Shown here: positions 6,989 to 28,237 of the stretch, in pieces
Numbering within the stretch: position 1 is the stretch's first letter
Layout: every line of letters starts with the position of its first letter
Assembly (NCBI GenBank): GCA_000733355.1
Contig: JNVV01000001.1
Coordinates: forward strand, 3,692,278-3,756,277
Source: Falciphora oryzae
Lineage: Eukaryota; Ascomycota; Sordariomycetes; Magnaporthales; Magnaporthaceae
Length of the DNA stretch: 64,000 nucleotides
Reading direction: 5' to 3'
The notes under the pieces: model-generated
Told to the model about the DNA's origin: nothing
Databases searched by the model: none
Seen by the model: only the letters and a program-made list of their open reading frames with translations
Made by a program: the position numbers and the translations under genes

Positions 6989-6996
6989 TATATATT
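6989..6996 (+). promoter_or_regulatory. TATA box of the repeat-peptide gene
   Basis: TATATATT about 290 bases before the ATG at 7289. It is followed by a C/T-rich, ATG-poor leader (about 7040-7260), as seen in strongly expressed fungal genes. An intron within the leader is possible but was not resolved. Confidence 0.45.
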
Positions 6997-7288
6997 CTGG
7001 CTCGGCCTCCCGTCCATCATCCAGAAATCTCTCCCTCGCCAAGCAGCACAACAATCTCAACCTCATCATCTCATCAGCTTCTTCACCCACATCTTCAGCT
7101 TCAGCATCTCCATCTTCCACGCATCTTACCACACAGCCAAGCACATACCACACTTCCAGGACTCGCTTCCGCATCTAAGCGCCCGCAACTCCTTCTTGGC
7201 TCATTTGTCCTCATATTCTAGCATTCTTCGTTCTCGCAAGCTACCAGCCCCTTTTTCCATATCTTGATCACACCGACCCAGCATCAAA

Positions 7289-8722
7289 ATGCAGATCGTC
7301 AAGTTCGCCCAGCTCATCGCCCTCCTCGCGGCCGCCGGCCCCGTCATTGGCGAGCCGGTCAACGAGGGCCGCCGGAGGTGCCTCGACGCCTCCCAGGACC
7401 CCGCCGCGCGCAGGCGCTGCATCGCCGAGGCCGACGAGGCCCGCCGCCGCTGCCTGTCCGGCCTGCAGGCCAGCGACCAGGAGGGCCGGCGCCGCTGCCT
7501 CCAGGTCCGCGACCTTGCCCAGGCCGTCGAGGAGGCGGCCCGCCGCCGCCGCTGCCTCTCTGGCCTCGAGGCCAACGACGTTGAAGGTCGTCGCCGCTGC
7601 CTCCAGGTTCGCGACACCGTCGATGCCGCCGACGAGGAGGCCAAGAAAAAGAAGAAGAAGAAGTGTGCCGGCAAGAAGAAGTGCCTCGCCGAGATCGAGG
7701 CCCGCGACGTCGAGGTTGCCGACCAGGAAGGCCGCCGCCGCCGCTGCCTGGCTGCCCTTCAGGAGGGTGATGTTGAGGGCCGCCGCCGCTGCCTTGAGAC
7801 CCGCGACCTGGAGGTAGCCGACCAGGAGGACCGCCGCCGCCGCTGCCTGGCTGCGCTCCAGGAAGGCGACGTCGAGGGCCGTCGCCGCTGCCTCGAGACC
7901 CGTGACTTGGAGGTTGCCGACCAGGAAGGCCGCCGCCGCCGTTGCCTGGCTGCCCTTCAGGAGGGTGATGTTGAGGGCCGTCGCCGGTGCCTTGAGACCC
8001 GCGACCTGGAGACTGCCGACCAGGAGGGCCGTCGCCGGTGCCTCGCCGCCCTGCAGCAGGGAGACGTCGAGGGCCGCCGCCGGTGCCTTGAGGCTCGCGA
8101 CATCAACGCGGCTGACGAGGAGGCCAAAAAGAAGAAGAAGAAGAAGTGCGCCGGGAAGAAGAAGTGCCTCGCCGAGATTGAGGCCCGTGACGTCGAGGAG
8201 GGCCGCCGCCGTTGCCTCGCCGGTGTCCAGGAGGGAGACGTTGAGGGCCGCCGCCGGTGCCTTCAATCCCGGGACGTCGAGGCCCTCGAGGCCGAGGAGG
8301 GGCGCCGTCGGTGCCTTGCCGCTATCCAGGAGGGCGATGTAGAGGGCAGGCGCCGCTGCCTCGAGGCCCGGGACGTCAATTCGGCTGACGAGGAGGCCAA
8401 GAAGAAGAAGAAGAAGTGCGCCGGCAAGAAGAAGTGTGCGCTCGAGACCCGGGACGTCGATGAGATTGAGGCCCGCGATGTCGACGCGGCTGATGAGGAG
8501 GCCAAGAAAAAGAAGAAGAAGAAGTGCGCCGGCAAGAAGAAGTGTGCGCTCGAGACCCGGGACGTCGATGAGATTGAGGCCCGCGATGTCGACGCGGCTG
8601 ATGAGGAGGCCAAGAAGAAGAAGAAGAAGAAGTGCGCTCTCGAGGCCCGCGACGTGGACGCGGCCGATGAGGAGGCCAAGAAGAAGAAGAAGAAGAAGTG
8701 CGCCCTTTCCGACCTCGAGTAA
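7289..8722 (+). CDS. Secreted Cys/Arg/Lys repeat protein, candidate kexin-processed peptide precursor
   Basis: A single exon of 477 residues. Residues 1-21 (MQIVKFAQLIALLAAAGPVIG) form a signal peptide. The rest is made of short modules, each an acidic segment ending in a basic run directly before a cysteine. I count 28 cysteines, every one preceded by RRR(R) or KKK. Arg-type modules carry cores such as CLAALQEGDVEG and CLETRDLEVADQEG. Lys-type modules have six or seven lysines, then CAGKKKC. The last third has a 36-residue tandem duplication (108 nt, starting at 8417 and 8525). Dibasic sites between repeated cores, plus a signal peptide, are the layout of fungal kexin-processed precursors (pheromones, dikaritin or epichloecyclin precursors). 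Kex2-type cutting would free many short peptides with N-terminal Cys. No UstY-type partner was seen nearby. Alternatively it may be an unprocessed polycationic cell-wall or secreted protein. Confidence 0.75.
   Translation: MQIVKFAQLIALLAAAGPVIGEPVNEGRRRCLDASQDPAARRRCIAEADEARRRCLSGLQASDQEGRRRCLQVRDLAQAVEEAARRRRCLSGLEANDVEGRRRCLQVRDTVDAADEEAKKKKKKKCAGKKKCLAEIEARDVEVADQEGRRRRCLAALQEGDVEGRRRCLETRDLEVADQEDRRRRCLAALQEGDVEGRRRCLETRDLEVADQEGRRRRCLAALQEGDVEGRRRCLETRDLETADQEGRRRCLAALQQGDVEGRRRCLEARDINAADEEAKKKKKKKCAGKKKCLAEIEARDVEEGRRRCLAGVQEGDVEGRRRCLQSRDVEALEAEEGRRRCLAAIQEGDVEGRRRCLEARDVNSADEEAKKKKKKCAGKKKCALETRDVDEIEARDVDAADEEAKKKKKKKCAGKKKCALETRDVDEIEARDVDAADEEAKKKKKKKCALEARDVDAADEEAKKKKKKKCALSDLE
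8417..8632 (+). repeat. 108-nt tandem duplication in the repeat-protein gene
   Basis: Two consecutive 108-nt units, starting at TGCGCCGGCAAG at 8417 and 8525, are nearly identical; the differences seen are synonymous changes in the Lys run. Each encodes one CAGKKKC module plus a long acidic core. Confidence 0.85.
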
Positions 8723-9779
8723 GGTGGTCAGGCGCTTGAGCAGAAGCGGCAGTGGAGGACGAGGAGTCTGCAGCAGAGAGGGGCACAGAGCTGAAAGGAT
8801 CAAAAGGCGGGCTGGCGATAGGCACAGTTGACAGATTGGGATCGTCGGAAACCAGATTGACACAACGTCGGAAGGCTTCTCTTTGGAGTTTCTTGCATTT
8901 GCGTTGGGTCGGTTTACTTTCTACTTCTTTGCATTGCTCTTTTTCAGTCTCGCTTCTTTGCCTGGCTTGTCTTGTCTTTTCTTTTCTCTTCTCTTGCCCT
9001 TTCTTTGCATTTTGGAATTGGTGCAAGTTCTCTCCAGTCTTTCTGGGCGCTGGCATGAGTTGTGATCGGTAGTTGCATGCTCGCAAAGGGTTTCGGTCTG
9101 GGTCTCGAAATTGATTTACCCTCGGCATTTGTGTATTTAGGGACTAGTTCACACATGAATTCACGCGCAGTCTTTACCGCACTCGTTATCAGATCTTGAA
9201 ATTTGAACAAGCTCTAGACTTGAGTGATATCATCAAGGCTACATGCGGCTGAATATCAGAGATGTCTTTGAATACAAGAGAGGAATCCCTTGCAAATCGC
9301 CGGTTGGTTTTATCACTATGGAAGTAGTTGCTATTGCAAGGAAGCGGGCAGGCAGTGGGCCTTTGGGATTGCCTCATATCTCTAAGGAGCGGGAAAGAAT
9401 GTGTCGAAGGATAGGGGGCCCTTTGCACCCCTGCTAGTATCCACCCACCCCCTTTGCGGCTGTTGAGGATTCCCGGGTTCTTGCTATCAAAAATTATGGC
9501 CAGCTTGCGAGACATGTTGATGAAAGCTAGGTAACTGTGCCTAACCCGGAATGAGCTACATTTCGGATCTGTGGCTCGCCTGTGGCTCCACCTTGTACCC
9601 CATCTTTTCTTTTGTTCATTATTTGCATTACCCCGCCAACAATGTGCCCGATCTTCCGATCGACCAGCCTGCCCATCTGCCACGTCCAGAATTTGTCTGT
9701 CGTGGCCCCCTCTCTCGACTCCTGACAAGCCGCATCTTAACATATCTATTTATTATCCTACAGTATCTTTGGTGGCACA
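8723..9779. other. Intergenic spacer
   Basis: 3' UTR of the repeat-protein gene (T-rich about 8880-9010) and promoter of the dynamin gene. No coding signature seen. Confidence 0.5.
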
Positions 9780-19070: not shown

Positions 19071-19736
19071 TGACATGATGAAATTAGGATCAAGAGACAC
19101 AGACGGCCGGCCGAGCGTCCTTCAAGCTCTTGTCAACTCGCACCGCTTCCAGCTTTGGCCCGGAAACTGACAGCATATACACTTACGTATCAGTATGTAA
19201 CGTAGGAATCCTCGTGGACGGAAGTCGAAACATGGACCTCCTTGACTCTAACTACGTCGAGCGGGCCCGCGTCCCCGCCCGGCGGCCTCAACTGTCGTTT
19301 CTCATCAGACTCCTCCCGTATTATCTATCTATCTCCTTTCTTCGGATTGGTTGCGCTGGTTTGTACCAGAAGGGAGGACGCACGAAGCGAAAACGGGTCA
19401 CTGCCACAACAAGGGTCTTAGCGCATCCATGTCGATCATTTCTTGGCACCTTATTTTTCCTAAAAGGGAACCATCAGGACATCACATCTTCCACATGGCG
19501 ATATTGCTGCTTCAAACCTCCAATTATCCATCCAGCTAGGTAGAAACGCCGCGGCTCAAATTCTTGGATTCTTGGTAGCGCCTTCGCGTCTGAACGGCGG
19601 TATGCGGCATACACATTACCTGATCTTCCGGGGAAGATATAAAATGGCCTCGTCGTCCAGAACGAAAAGTGAAGAACAGAACACACATCATTAGGCACCC
19701 ACAGACAAGCATACCTACCTATTATTTCCAAGTAAA
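19071..19736. other. Intergenic spacer
   Basis: 3' UTR of the regulator and promoter of the deiminase-like gene. Contains a short TATC run near 19321. No gene seen. Confidence 0.5.
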
Positions 19737-21578
19737 ATGGCAGCGGCCCGTCGACTGTTCACTCTCCTGCTACTCGGACTGGTTCCGTCTGCTAAAGCGC
19801 TCCGCCCACGCATCCTGGCCGACACGAACCGAGATGGCATCGTCAGCGAGCTTGATGATGCGGACAAGTACGACTGGACAGCGTCTCGCGGAGCCATCTT
19901 CCTCCCAAACATCGGCGACTCGGCCCACCGCTGCCCCGTGGCTGACCTGACGGGCACGCCTCTTTCCAACGACGAGCTTTCACGCTGCCACGACGCATCC
20001 GGAGCCCGCATGCTGCCCACCAGCTCTCGCTATGCCGCACAGCTGTTGACGCTCCCACTCCCGGAATTATCCGACGGCGCGACTGGACGCATCTACGTCG
20101 AGCCGGCCCACAACCACGACCGTGTCCGTCTGTTCTGGAACGAATCCGACTGGACCACGGACTACTCGAGCACATGGGCAATTGTCAACCCGCAGGTCAC
20201 CTTCAACGCGACCAGCCTGCGAAAAGGAATTTCCCTTGCCATCGACGGCCGCGAGCTTCTGACGGACGCGGCAGTCTGGGATGGTTCGATCAACGTCGTG
20301 TTTCAGGTGACAGATGGCAACCGGACAGACCGCGACTTCGTTGCGCTCAAGCAGGCCCCAGTCCTGCTGCACCACCATCGCCAGCGAGCCGAGGTCGTCC
20401 TCAGCAGTGCCCCCGGAGACAACCGGACCATCGGGTCGGCTTGGCAGTCTCATTTCATCCGTGGACTGCAGGGTGCGGTCGCCGGTGAGGTTCCCATCCT
20501 CCTCCTCAACCAGAGCACAGACATCTGGGCCCAGGACTTCCTCGAGCCTGGGTATGCCAGCATGCCCGGCCCCGACGGCCCCATCTCCATCCGTGTTCTC
20601 CTCCGCTCAGCCCAATCCACACGCGACGCCGGGCGCCAAGTCTTTTCCCGGCTTCGGACCGCCGGCATCGGCGGCTTCCAGCCCGGCTCAGGCTCGGGAT
20701 TCGGCTGGGAGGAGATCAACTCCGGCGGCAACATCGAAACCATTCCGCCATACACCGCCCGCTCCGGCAGGCGCTGGCCCAACGGCCGCGTCATCATGGG
20801 CACCTATTTCGGCACCTACCCGGCCCAGTCGATGGTCAAGTTCCTCGAAAGCCAGCAAGCTCAGTCACCACTCTTCCTCGAAGCTGGCTGGCTCGGGGTG
20901 GGCCATGTCGACGAGATGGTCCAATTCCTCCCCTCCAACTCCACCCCGCTAGGCTTCACCATCGCGATAGCGGACACGCACTCCGCCCTCTCCGTCCTCC
21001 GCGACGCGGTCTCCTCTGGCCACGGTGACACGCCGCTGGTTTCGTACACGGGCGACGCAACCCGCGACGAACTAGCCATTTTCCTCGACCCACATCTCCT
21101 GGACAACACCACTACCATCTCCTCCATCCTCTCCGATCAGTCCTTCATCCGTACCCAGGCCTACGCGCAGCGATACCTCGACGAGAACCTAGCCGTCCTC
21201 CTGCGCGAGGTCCCGCTCAACGAGACGGACGTGCTGCGGGTGCCGACGCTGTTCAAAGATATCACGTACCCCTGGCCGACGACGCCGGACGGGCATCCGC
21301 CGCGGCTGGGCCGGCCAAGCCCCGGGGAGAGCCAGCTCAAGGGGTTGCTGCCGCAGGCGATCAATGGACTCGTGCTGGGGGGCGGGGTGTATATCGCGCC
21401 GAGGCAGTGGGGGCCGGTGGTGGAGGGCAAGGATGTTTTTGGGAAAGCGGTGGAGGAGGTTTACGCGAGGGCCGGGATGGAAGTCAGATGGCTGGATGAC
21501 TATATGAGTCACCACGTTAGAGGCGGGGAGGTGCACTGTGGGACGAACGCGTTGCGGGAGATGGGAGCCTGGTGGTAG
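19737..21578 (+). CDS. Secreted peptidylarginine deiminase-like protein
   Basis: A single exon of 613 residues. The signal peptide is residues 1 to about 21 (ARRLFTLLLLGLVPSAKA). An EF-hand-like Asp-rich loop follows directly (DTNRDGIVSELDDADKY). The rest is the PAD catalytic fold. In vertebrate PADs the catalytic residues are two Asp, His and Cys; here they correspond to D267 (WAQDFLEPGY), H390 and D392 (GHVDEM) and C601 (VHCGTN), all present. The expected reaction is Ca-dependent conversion of peptidyl-arginine to citrulline, probably outside the cell; the fungal substrate is unknown. Length is close to animal PADs (about 660), but the two N-terminal immunoglobulin-like domains are not obvious. 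Most fungi lack an annotated PAD, although such secreted homologues exist in some ascomycetes. Confidence 0.85.
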   Translation: MAAARRLFTLLLLGLVPSAKALRPRILADTNRDGIVSELDDADKYDWTASRGAIFLPNIGDSAHRCPVADLTGTPLSNDELSRCHDASGARMLPTSSRYAAQLLTLPLPELSDGATGRIYVEPAHNHDRVRLFWNESDWTTDYSSTWAIVNPQVTFNATSLRKGISLAIDGRELLTDAAVWDGSINVVFQVTDGNRTDRDFVALKQAPVLLHHHRQRAEVVLSSAPGDNRTIGSAWQSHFIRGLQGAVAGEVPILLLNQSTDIWAQDFLEPGYASMPGPDGPISIRVLLRSAQSTRDAGRQVFSRLRTAGIGGFQPGSGSGFGWEEINSGGNIETIPPYTARSGRRWPNGRVIMGTYFGTYPAQSMVKFLESQQAQSPLFLEAGWLGVGHVDEMVQFLPSNSTPLGFTIAIADTHSALSVLRDAVSSGHGDTPLVSYTGDATRDELAIFLDPHLLDNTTTISSILSDQSFIRTQAYAQRYLDENLAVLLREVPLNETDVLRVPTLFKDITYPWPTTPDGHPPRLGRPSPGESQLKGLLPQAINGLVLGGGVYIAPRQWGPVVEGKDVFGKAVEEVYARAGMEVRWLDDYMSHHVRGGEVHCGTNALREMGAWW

Positions 21579-24144: not shown

Positions 24145-27100
24145 CTACCTCCAGCTTTTTATAGTAGATAAAGAAGATATGGTACCTGGGTGCCTCTCCC
24201 CGAGAACTCGCTGGCGCGCCTCCGTACAGCTCTCCATTAGGGCCAAGGCATCTGCATGTCGACCTTGACTTTTCCAAATAAAGGCCAGGTTATTCATGCT
24301 CGTTAGCGTATCGGGATGGTCGGCCCCGAGCTTGGTTTTGCGAGNNNNNNNNNNNNNNNNNNNNNNNNNNNNNNNNNNNNNNNNNNNNNNNNNNNNNNNN
24401 NNNNNNNNNNNNNNNNNNNNNNNNNNNNNNNNNNNNNNNNNNNNNNNNNNNNNNNNNNNNNNNNNNNNNNNNNNNNNNNNNNNNNNNNNNNNNNNNNNNN
24501 NNNNNNNNNNNNNNNNNNNNNNNNNNNNNNNNNNNNNNNNNNNNNNNNNNNNNNNNNNNNNNNNNNNNNNNNNNNNNNNNNNNNNNNNNNNNNNNNNNNN
24601 NNNNGAGGTTGGCTATGCTCGTTAGCGTATCGGGATGGTCGGCCCCGAGCTTGGTTTTGCAAGTTTCCATTACCTCCACCCCCAGCTTTTCAGCCTCCTC
24701 CCACCGGCCCTGATTCCAAAACGTCGACGCGAGGTTGGCTATGCTCGTTAGCGTATCGGGATGGTCGGCCCCGAGCTTGGTTTTGCAAGCTTCCATTACC
24801 TCCACCCCCAGCTTTTCAGCCTCCTCCCACCGGCCCTGATTCATGTACGTCGACGCGAGGTTATTCATGCTCGTCAGCGTCGAGGGATCGTCCAGCCCAA
24901 GTATCCCTCTTCTTAGCTCAACGGCCCCAAGCTGAAGCCTTTCAGCTTCCTTCCATTGACCCTGGTAGAGGAGGTACCCTGCGGCGCAATGGAGCAGACC
25001 AGCTTTTGCCACCTCTTCATCCTTCGACCTGGTACCTTCCTGCTGCAATACCGCGTACGCGTGCGGAAGGTACCGGCTGCATACCGTCCGGTTTTCAAAG
25101 CTGCCGAACGGGAAGTAATGCGATACCGCTAGGAGAGCCTGGCCAGCAAAATCGCCCATCGTTTTGTTCCTGGCGAGCCACTTTCGCGTTACCAACTGCA
25201 CTAGTCGGTGGATGTCTAGGCTCTGATCCTTTCCTGTTATAACAAACGAAAATCCCTTAAGAAGTCCGAGTGCCTTTTGAAGCTGTATTCCCCCACGACC
25301 GGTCTCGTTCTGTCGCATGTCGTAGTAAGTCAGGAACTTTTCCGGGATGGCTTGTCGGTCGAAGAAGCTCATGAGCGAGAGCAGCTCGCCCGCAAAGGCG
25401 TTTTGTTGCTGAATCTGCTCAAACGAAAGGATCCACGTTTCTGCGACCGCTCGCGGTGTTTTCGAGTCTCTCCCGTCCGTTTCGAACTCTTCGCTGAGTA
25501 GGTCCACGAGGTGCTGATCGCTCTGATCTAGGAGCTGGATATACCGGCCAACCGCCATGGTATTCGCTTCGATAAATGCGGCGGCCTGGACAAGTGCGAG
25601 CGGTAGGTGCTCTAGCCGGGTAGAGAGCGCCGACAGCTCGTCAGACGGAACGTTCCGTCCCCCCAATTTGGTGCGGAGGAGCTGCTCCGACTCGCCGTCG
25701 TTCATCGCGTCAACCCCGATGGGCGGCTTTCCCTGAGCAAGCATTACGCCTGCCTCCTTGTTTCTGGTTGTAACAAGGATCGATCCGTGGCCACATTCGG
25801 GGATGTACTGGCCGAGAGAGTCCTTTGGGCTGATGCTGTTGACTCGCTGGGATTCTCGCGACGACGGGAAAAAGAGTTGTGCGTCGTCGGCATTGTCGAT
25901 GACCATTAGCCACGAGCCTTGCTCCTTCTTCTCTAGCCATCTCTTCACCAGTGGTAGCACATCCGTTTTAGGATCGTCGCAGCCCGGGATGCGGCATGCT
26001 TGCGCAATAGAATGGAACGATTCGCGAAATCGCTCTGCATTGCTGGCGTGGACCCAAAAGACCGACATATCCGGAAGCGTCTTCTGGAGCCAGTATGCGT
26101 ATGCCAGGGCTATCTGCGTTTTTCTGCTCCTGGTTAGCAGTGAGGAGATTTGTGGTTGAAACAGACTCACCCGATGCCCCCAAGACCGAAGAGCGAGACT
26201 CTTGCCTGGGAGGCGGACTGGAGAGGCAGCTGCTCTAATTTCTCAAGGATGCCGGGCCTAGGCACAAAGGCGTCGTTTCTTGGGTACGGAACAAGAACTA
26301 AAACTGTGTGAGAACTTCTGCATGTGGGATTCCGGGCAGTGAATATCGACGTACAGCAAGGACCAGCAGGCTCTTCCTGGCGATGGCCTAACGCTTGAGG
26401 AATAAGCAAAATGCTTCTAGGAGGCTCGCTAGCAGGTATCACACACCTGGGGCCGCCGACCAATGGCCCAAAAACGCCTTCATACACGCTGCCGCTGTTG
26501 CTGCAGCATACCGCTGCCATGCCTTGGTTTTGTGGCTATCGGCGTAGTCGCAAACGCCCTTAATCACCACACAGGGGAAGCGGTCCCACACCCCGGCACT
26601 TTCCATCTCAAAGGCCGTGATGCCCTCTTTCTCGGCGATGGCGTCCCGTTCTTGGCCAGACTTTATTACGGTATCCCCTGACGCGACCAGGCCGAAGTGC
26701 ACAGCGGGCGGCTGACCGTCCTGTTCGAGGCGGGCACGTCGCACCAGGTTGCCGTTGCAGCCGCACTTTTCACACGATAACCCGTCGCTAATGTGGCGGT
26801 ACGTTGGCTCAAAAAGCTTATCTTGGAGAGCACCCGGGTAACCGGCTTCCAGCTCCGGCTCGGCTCGGAGCACCTCCATGTACTCGGCCATTTTGCCTCG
26901 CAGCATCTTTCGGTGGCGGAGGCCCTTTAGCTTCGCCAGCAGCGCGCGTATCTCCTCATTGGGTCTCCCTAGAGAGTCTAGGAGCGTATCCTTGCGCACG
27001 AAGCCTTCGGGCAGCCGCCGACCAAGGTCGTACTGAATAACAGCGTCGCTGACGACGACATCGCCGAGCGTAACCTCCTCGCCGCCAGGGCCGAAAGGCA

Positions 27101-27404
27101 CGGCGCCGCAGATGCCCACCACGAGAGCGAGCCTGATGTTGGGGAAGCTCGCCCGGCAGTTGGCAGCGACTGCGGCGGCGCTGACCTTCCCCATGCCCGG
27201 CATGTGGGCGAGCACGACGTTGTGACGGCCGACGGCACCTGTGGAGTAGGCATTCGGATCGTTCGGGGCTTTGTCGTACGGCGGGCCGTCATCGTCCCAG
27301 TAGTGGTCGAAGAGGGCGTCGACGGCGTCGGCCTCGAGGGTGAGGGCGCAGATGACGGCGATCTCGAAGTCGAAACGCGTGGCCGGTCGGCGCGGGCGTT
27401 CCAT
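24145..27404 (-). CDS. NLR-type receptor: PNP_UDP - NB-ARC - TPR
   Basis: Exons 27404-26447, 26303-26171 and 26123-24145, the last interrupted by 260 N. Residues about 12-310 are a purine/uridine phosphorylase-like domain (FEIAVICALTLEADAV, GICGAVP, FEMESAGVWD), a common fungal NLR input domain. Joining exons 2 and 3 rebuilds the P-loop GLGGIGKTQ (about residue 359). Walker B is WLMVIDNADD, followed by ILVTTRN and LPLALVQAAAFI, the NB-ARC/STAND NTPase set. The C-terminus is a 42-residue TPR array (GRWEEAEKLGVEVME.. unit) with nearly identical 126-nt copies; the closing repeat ends STIKSWR and a TAG at 24147-24145. Proteins of this build act in fungal nonself recognition and incompatibility-type cell death. 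A naive translation through the gap leaves the TPR frame because the N count is not the true length. Confidence 0.9.
24286..24900 (-). repeat. 126-nt TPR-coding tandem repeats
   Basis: Unit starts at 24605, 24731 and 24857 are exactly 126 nt apart, with only a few substitutions; a further partial copy lies at 24286-24344 beyond the gap. Confidence 0.95.
24345..24604. other. Assembly gap (260 N)
   Basis: Unsequenced stretch within the TPR repeat array of the NLR gene; surely a collapsed or unspanned repeat rather than a feature. Confidence 0.99.
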
Positions 27405-28237
27405 AGTCGCGGGGTCGGGCGCGGGGGCGGTCGCGAGTTCGGGCGCGGTGGCGGCGCTGTCCGGCGCTAGTCGAGACCAGCAGGACGGCTTTGCGTTAGA
27501 ATGCTGAGCTCTAAACTGTGATCTCTGCTGTCTTCTCTGTGGGTATTAAGGATAGAACGTGCGTGCAATCATGTCATTGTAGGAAGCAAGTGTCCGCAGC
27601 TGGCATGCGCTGCGGATTGGGCATCGTTACGGCCCAATCTCAGCCGCACCGCGCAGCCTGACGACCTTGCTGGTCAAAAATCACGCAGGCACTACTGCTC
27701 GTCGTTCAGGTTGGCCGATTGGCTCGGCTGAGGATGCAATCGACGCTGCCGCGACTCCTGCAACCGGGATCGAGGTCGTTGACGATGGGGTCACAGGCTC
27801 GCCACACAAGAGCGGTATCGCTCAGGCACGCTGCCGCTCCTTCAGCTGGCCGACTGGAGCGAAGAAGCAATCCCACGTCTGTAGGCTAGAGGCGATGCAG
27901 AGAGCCTGCACCACGGCCAACGGGTCTCTACTGCCTTGATTCCGGTCGTGTGCCCGCTCCGTCAAGGCCGCCAACACCGGGAGCGATCTAATCCTTGACG
28001 CTAGCACTATGGCACGGCCCGTCCTCGCTCATGCAGCTATGGCAACCCCGAGCCGCCCAACTAACCATGTGAGAACCAGCGGCCAGATCGCCGTCACGTT
28101 CGAGGTCGTTCAACAACAGAACTTGGATCAGCCCTTCTCCCTCCTTGCGGACGGTTGAAAGTCTTGGTCGAGCGCATCGGCCCTCCCCACGGCCTTGTCT
28201 TCCCGACCGCGAAAGTCTGCCTCGTCTCCGGACCGGA
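27405..28237. other. Intergenic spacer
   Basis: Promoter side of the NLR gene. Short frames only, no gene recognised. Confidence 0.5.

Follow-up and report, generated by a model that had tools for sequence, protein, structure and literature searches.

A putative orphan KEX2-processed repeat protein of Falciphora oryzae with cysteine directly after each basic junction

Gene structure and genomic neighbourhood

We analyzed a stretch of 64,000 nucleotides of contig JNVV01000001.1 of F. oryzae (referred to as the window), in which the gene described here is a single open frame of 477 codons on the forward strand, with ATG at 7289, the last codon at 8717-8719 and TAA at 8720-8722. The start codon stands in the context CAAAATG, and by consensus match a TATA-like element is followed by a CT/CA-rich stretch that resembles a fungal 5′ UTR. 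According to hydropathy over the whole protein, residues 10-20 form the most hydrophobic stretch, with no comparable stretch downstream. The probable signal peptide would presumably be cut after VIG, a position assigned by the −3/−1 rule. The protein ends with CALSDLE, its sole Met is encoded by the start codon, and both Tyr and Trp are missing from its 477 residues. The gene and its parts are:

6989..6994, + strand: TATA-like element (consensus match), 300 bp ahead of the ATG
7289..8722, + strand: whole coding sequence, 477 codons and TAA (open frame; synonymous bias between repeat copies)
7289..7351, + strand: probable signal peptide, residues 1-21 (hydropathy, hydrophobic 10-20; likely cut after VIG)
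7352..7663, + strand: residues 22-125, lead EPVNEG, six Cys-led cores behind RRR/RRRR and, last, the first Lys7 run
7664..7681, + strand: residues 126-131, Cys-Ala-Gly-Lys3 module (number one of four), with a long Lys run before it and the next Cys behind it
7682..8083, + strand: residues 132-265, main array, CLAALQEGDVEG-RRR type alternating with CLETRDLEVADQEG-RRR(R) type modules
8084..8164, + strand: residues 266-292, second Lys7 module and second CAG-KKK
8165..8356, + strand: residues 293-356, second group of Arg-ended modules
8357..8719, + strand: residues 357-477, the 121 residues past the last Arg junction, Cys modules rich in Lys and carrying EARD/ETRD motifs

At the DNA level, the main array appears as a tandem repeat with a 99-bp unit in 4.1 copies (7697-8101). 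The C-terminal 121 residues may form one piece if kexin cuts after Arg runs only. An antisense frame of 550 codons (7271-8920, − strand) overlaps the entire gene and probably results from the composition of the repeats.

Among the flanking frames are matches to an amino-acid permease and to a dynamin-like GTPase. Of the 119 window frames of ≥150 codons, 30 were scanned, and among these only a deiminase was suggestive of a peptide-modifying enzyme; intron-split genes, or genes outside the 30 frames, could escape such a scan. This protein-arginine deiminase (19695-21575, + strand; PF03068, 365 bits) lies ~11 kb from the precursor gene and has 305 relatives. Among the matches listed (120), all named ones were fungal, including Parachaetomium, Chaetomium and similar genera (69-78%) as well as Triangularia and Cladorrhinum (74-75%); one further record without a name matched at 95%. 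Parachaetomium belongs to Chaetomiaceae, Triangularia and Cladorrhinum to a sister family, and from these matches Chaetomiaceae would be the probable family of the genome. Because its relatives are so many, the adjacency of deiminase and precursor is probably due to chance. Citrullination of the RRR junctions, if it occurred, would be expected to block cutting. Further downstream, at 24293-27545 on the − strand, a PNP_UDP_1 frame is followed by a frame with DUF7779 and TPR, and a 126-bp tandem repeat with 93% matches (24605-24880) lies within the PNP_UDP_1/TPR region. This locus resembles a fungal receptor of the NLR type in which TPR units were duplicated recently.

Junctions and repeat modules

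Behind a short lead, the protein is composed of 28 Cys-led modules, all but the last of which are closed by a basic run. Each of the 28 Cys is directly preceded by RRR or KKK, as the first-pass annotation had reported with exact coordinates, and the rule also holds in the other direction, since all 28 basic runs (≥2 basic residues; all at least three long) are directly followed by Cys. The junctions end with RR in 18 cases, with KK in 10 and with KR in none. Basic runs span three to seven residues, and those of Lys reach six or seven. The cores are of 22 different sequences, each with a net acidic charge apart from CAG, and the charge alternates along the whole length of the chain. The type-A core, to which CLAALQEGDVEG belongs, is the most numerous module with eight copies; CLAALQEGDVEG itself occurs in three exact copies and CLETRDLEVADQEG in one. 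The Lys modules come back in the same order each time and make up the C-terminus.

A second rule, absent from the first-pass annotation, concerns the 15 basic residues of the mature protein that do not belong to a run. All are single Arg directly before Asp, and every one of the 15 conforms to the motif [L/I][E/Q][V/A/T/S]R. Shuffling the mature sequence 10,000 times gave a mean Cys-after-basic count of 0.57 (maximum 5), and core-wise shuffling gave a mean of 2.5 Arg-Asp pairs with 15 reached in 0 of 2000 shuffles, but both statistics overstate independence because the repeat copies are related by descent.

Since the DNA consists of tandem arrays, invariance of the junctions alone proves little, and codon usage among the copies was therefore considered. 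At the 18 Arg junctions, all 54 codons encode Arg (CGC 37, CGG 7, CGT 7, AGG 3), and the 28 Cys codons comprise 25 TGC and three TGT. Because codons vary among copies while none of the 18 Arg junctions loses an Arg or its Cys, the protein is constrained. The 30 codons of the 10 Lys junctions are all AAG and, showing no variation, are uninformative. The pN/pS between copies was 0.08 for the Arg junctions, where the non-synonymous part stems solely from inferred intermediate steps (CGC or CGT to AGG). It was 0.26 for the eight type-A cores and 0.39 for five type-B cores, values that cover the modules with these two motifs and leave out the 15 fitting neither.

A single-sequence AlphaFold model consisted mostly of long helices (mean pLDDT 65, pTM 0.28); between residues 101 and 260, the blocks of ten residues had pLDDT values of 70-81. 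We regard the model as too weak to count, and as a prediction it gives no support to a disordered chain. No amphipathic helical face was detected in six double-module or helix segments, for which the 100-degree moment was 0.02-0.15 and shuffles were equal or above in 48-99%; the junctions are therefore probably exposed. The search of the PDB gave no match with E up to 1. Choline_sulf_C, the sole Pfam match, scored 17.6 bits, below its cut-off of 27, and was dismissed as chance.

Search for relatives

Within the limits given below, no relative was found in the protein collection, the genome or the prokaryote contigs. For the full-length protein and residues 1-118, no homologue was found among ~5.8 billion proteins at E 0.001 and E 1. 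In this search, candidates of 262-834 aa were eligible, exact 5-mer words were used and the ~8000 best word-sharing candidates were scored; because of these length and word limits, relatives with a very different repeat number or from an unpredicted gene could escape. The collection does include fungi, as the neighbouring protein-arginine deiminase drew its 305 proteins from it (E up to 1e-10). In the 50.18-Mb genome of 123 contigs, the full-length query for paralogues matched the gene itself and nothing else, while residues 22-118 gave six matches with E up to 10, five of them within the gene itself and one on contig C5. The latter (E 0.036) was rejected as a paralogue; its frame looks like a protein kinase, presumably, from a motif recognised by eye. 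With a query of 147 of the 477 residues, 302 pattern matches were obtained in prokaryote genome contigs, none of which was confirmed. The basic-Cys rule was not found described in the literature searched, and a description may still be in print.

Comparison with known repeat precursors

KEX2-processed repeat proteins (KEPs) are a defined class with thousands of members (PMC7329392, PMC6339444), whose functions are described as largely unknown (PMC9769878). One criterion asks for at least three tandem repeats of ≥8 aa between KR, KK, RK or RR sites, none exceeding 100 aa (PMC7329392). In agreement with this, the window protein has 29 fragments between dibasic sites, 23 of them ≥8 aa and the longest 23, a count that leaves out the 40-residue seed step of that study and treats KK as a site, while Arg-only cutting leaves a 121-aa piece. 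Another criterion is that repeats make up at least 15% of the protein (PMC6339444). With eight type-A cores by motif, or six at ≥60% identity to CLAALQEGDVEG, 12 aa in six to eight copies cover 15.1-20.1% of the 477 residues, which is narrow at the lower count. Both surveys count KK as a site (PMC7329392, PMC6339444). In a simple KEP-style scan for at least four similar fragments between dibasic sites, the frame at 7289-8722 was the sole match among 610 frames of ≥60 codons in the 64-kb window, and the same scan recovered the genome's pheromone-type precursor as control locus. Together with the presence of a kexin gene in the genome, this supports, as far as the architecture is concerned, the earlier view of a secreted repeat precursor with kexin-type junctions.

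Like the KEPs of the cited surveys, the protein has a signal-like N-terminus, judged here by hydropathy and in the published pipelines by SignalP, and many short similar modules between dibasic sites, and it lacks a family match over the cut-off; it is an orphan, as are the 2560 of 7878 surveyed KEPs without homologue. It differs from the KEPs described there in that Cys follows 28 of 28 junctions, KR does not occur, the runs are three to seven residues long and the Arg-Asp rule is strict. The word cysteine does not occur in the main text of PMC7329392 and is found in four places in that of PMC6339444, three of them dealing with pheromone-like peptides and the fourth in the abbreviation list. 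The first-pass annotation had suggested a new class; since KEPs are defined and orphans are common among them, the protein is better described as an orphan with an unusual junction rule than as a wholly new class.

The pheromone-type precursor is located on contig C5 (1114580-1115548) and carries GCRYRGQSCW-type repeats with QNGCRYRGQSCW-like cores, from which we assume it to be of the alpha-pheromone type. It shares with the window protein basic junctions, acidic spacers and single Arg in EVR/EAR before D or Q, whereas each of its 18 dibasic sites is KR, followed by F, A, Q, D or W and in 0 of 18 cases by Cys. No similarity between the two proteins was detectable (best 20 bits, E 0.17). In two places, the core QNGC of the pheromone-type precursor has only one Arg before it (LIEAR, LLEVR) instead of the KR of other copies, a sequence pattern that suggests either monobasic processing or decayed sites. 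Because LIEAR and LLEVR replace KR before QNGC, the single-Arg motif of the window protein is a candidate weak site, but the other single basic residues of the pheromone-type precursor, inside cores or in other contexts, speak against this idea. The alpha-pheromone core has two Cys and W at its end (PMC6339444), and the window protein contains no Trp. Precursors of h-type pheromones are characterized by copies of (LI)GC(TS)VM and a CAAX C-terminus (PMC3068285), neither of which agrees with the ending CALSDLE and the start codon as only Met.

Dikaritin precursors (ustiloxin, phomopsin) are likewise secreted, with repeated cores between kexin sites (PMC9769878), and have the core EDYXI (PMC6339444). 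They differ from the window protein, which has no Tyr and for which the window contains no UstYa match. For UstYa/DUF3328, at least 13 matches were found in the genome and none in the window, the nearest one on contig C1 being ~950 kb off, and a dikaritin is therefore unlikely. The Tyr of the dikaritin core bears the ether cross-link. A cyclic RiPP is not supported, on the same two grounds. The eight 9.9-kb regions with the 13 UstYa matches contained no KEP-like frame, although intron-broken frames would escape. A further secreted, repetitive protein is Rsp3 of Ustilago maydis, which needs a cysteine-rich region for its function; kexin is predicted to leave its repeats uncut, while its N terminus is reported to be processed (PMC5923269). 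The Cys-rich region of Rsp3 is, as described there, one stretch, compared with one Cys per module here.

Kexin and cutting at the junctions

The genome search indicated a kexin gene by at least one P_proprotein match (contig C1, 621802-622062; 99.7 bits), with a subtilase domain in the adjacent open frame just upstream. Reportedly, Kex2 tolerates no residue but Arg at P1, with Lys or Arg at P2 and an aliphatic or basic residue at P4, and disfavours bulky residues at P1′ (PMC3777899). Given this preference for Arg, the 18 Arg junctions are good and the 10 Lys junctions poor kexin sites. From the sequence, cutting to Cys-first peptides is plausible at the former and doubtful at the latter. The runs of six to seven Lys exceed any cutting need and are without evident role there. 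When digested in silico after Arg runs only, the protein gave 19 pieces, of which sixteen had 9-19 residues (basic run included) and three had 49, 43 and 121. The first of the sixteen is without Cys, and each of the three long pieces carries Lys runs and several Cys.

Regarding the residue after the cut, Cys was fifth of 20 for SCF, 16th of 20 for FGF16 and lowest for luciferase in a Pichia library of all 20 P1′ residues, in which secreted activity was read out and not cutting (PMC3777899). By analogy to these substrates, Cys at P1′ would be tolerated, not favoured. Digested Kex2 sites were enriched at P1′/P2′ in acidic and small residues (Ala, Val, Leu) (PMC2515848), and P2′ of the precursor is Leu, Ala or Ile. 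Predicted Kex2 substrates can also be left uncut, as was the case for eight of the 20 proteins named in the consulted part of the same study (PMC2515848).

Discussion

We consider it rather probable that the gene encodes an orphan KEP which is cut by kexin at the 18 RRR|Cys junctions into acidic Cys-first peptides of 8-15 residues. In this process, the chain would enter the ER via its signal-like N-terminus, kexin in the Golgi would cut after the 18 RRR sites and a carboxypeptidase would trim Arg from the released peptides. The expected products are 15 acidic Cys-first peptides of 8-15 residues, the commonest of which would be the CLAALQEGDVEG type with eight peptides. In addition, two larger Lys/Cys-rich pieces and the 121-residue C-terminal piece would be released, which would remain large because the Lys junctions are poor kexin sites. 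L/I-E/Q-x-R before Asp could serve as a second, weaker cutting site. As Cys meets the oxidising ER before the Golgi kexin, disulfide-linked peptide dimers are the likely end product. Their role would most likely be that of an extracellular peptide signal or of a peptide aimed at neighbours, which is a guess. Against uniform cutting stand the absence of KR from all 28 junctions, compared with KR at 18 of 18 sites in the pheromone-type precursor, and the 10 of 28 junctions with Lys at P1.

Alternatively, the chain may be uncut or hardly cut, being instead a secreted polyampholyte in which acidic blocks alternate with basic-Cys nodes and whose 28 Cys cross-link it into a matrix of a coat or wall. 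Charge alternation along the full length, the Lys6-7 runs not favoured by kexin, the lack of any KR site and the helical single-sequence model with pLDDT 70-81 over residues 101-260 would fit such a protein, for which Rsp3 with its repeats predicted not to be kexin-processed sets a precedent, apart from its processed N terminus (PMC5923269). However, there is nothing out of the ordinary about the 18 Arg junctions as dibasic sites, and the chain would cross the kexin-bearing Golgi; a folded repeat is not indicated by any amphipathic periodicity, and neither the PDB (E up to 1) nor Pfam, with one match under the cut-off, offered a fold. We regard an uncut chain as rather unlikely. Improbable, in our view, is a division of roles in which the Arg junctions are cut, the Lys/Cys-rich pieces of 49, 43 and 121 residues are the active ones and the short acidic peptides are spacers balancing the polycations. 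Acidic pro-regions do balance cationic peptides in transit, the Arg-only digest yields just these three long pieces with Lys and multiple Cys, and the Lys modules keep a fixed order and fill the C-terminus, but the most numerous module is the short type-A core with eight copies and acidic stretches persist within the Lys pieces.

A precursor of a pheromone or of a dikaritin-type cyclic RiPP would have the same architecture of signal-like start, repeats and dibasic sites, and the single-Arg motif resembles spacers of the genome's pheromone-type precursor. With that alpha-pheromone type encoded elsewhere (contig C5, 1114580-1115548) and not detectably similar (20 bits, E 0.17), with UstYa found at least 13 times in the genome and not in the window, and with neither Tyr nor Trp in the protein, we assign this explanation a very low probability. 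Still less credible is that repetitive, GC-rich DNA has left a frame open by chance and that there is no gene at all; the longer antisense frame of 550 codons is open too and the homologue searches were empty, but synonymous bias between copies (pN/pS 0.08-0.39), the signal-like N-terminus, the CAAAATG start and the TATA-like box argue for a gene.

Within the reading as a kexin-cut orphan KEP, we tentatively propose as a possibility a precursor with two codes, in which every cut would yield a free or disulfide-paired N-terminal Cys, the former basic run next to it would make the thiol reactive, and a monobasic Arg|Asp code would re-split about half of the modules. The kexin-cut precursor predicts acidic Cys-first peptides, probably as disulfide dimers, from the Arg junctions only. 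If the chain is uncut, this would call for caution in KEP surveys that treat RR and KK alike. One chain would show side by side how fungal kexin handles bare RRR|C and Lys-only junctions, and the gene would show whether processing really takes place at the single-Arg motif that it has in common with the pheromone-type precursor. Peptides with N-terminal Cys have a distinct chemistry, including thiol exchange, metal binding and ligation. If the two-code reading is true, the protein would represent a KEP family that is defined by the residue after the cut and not by the core.
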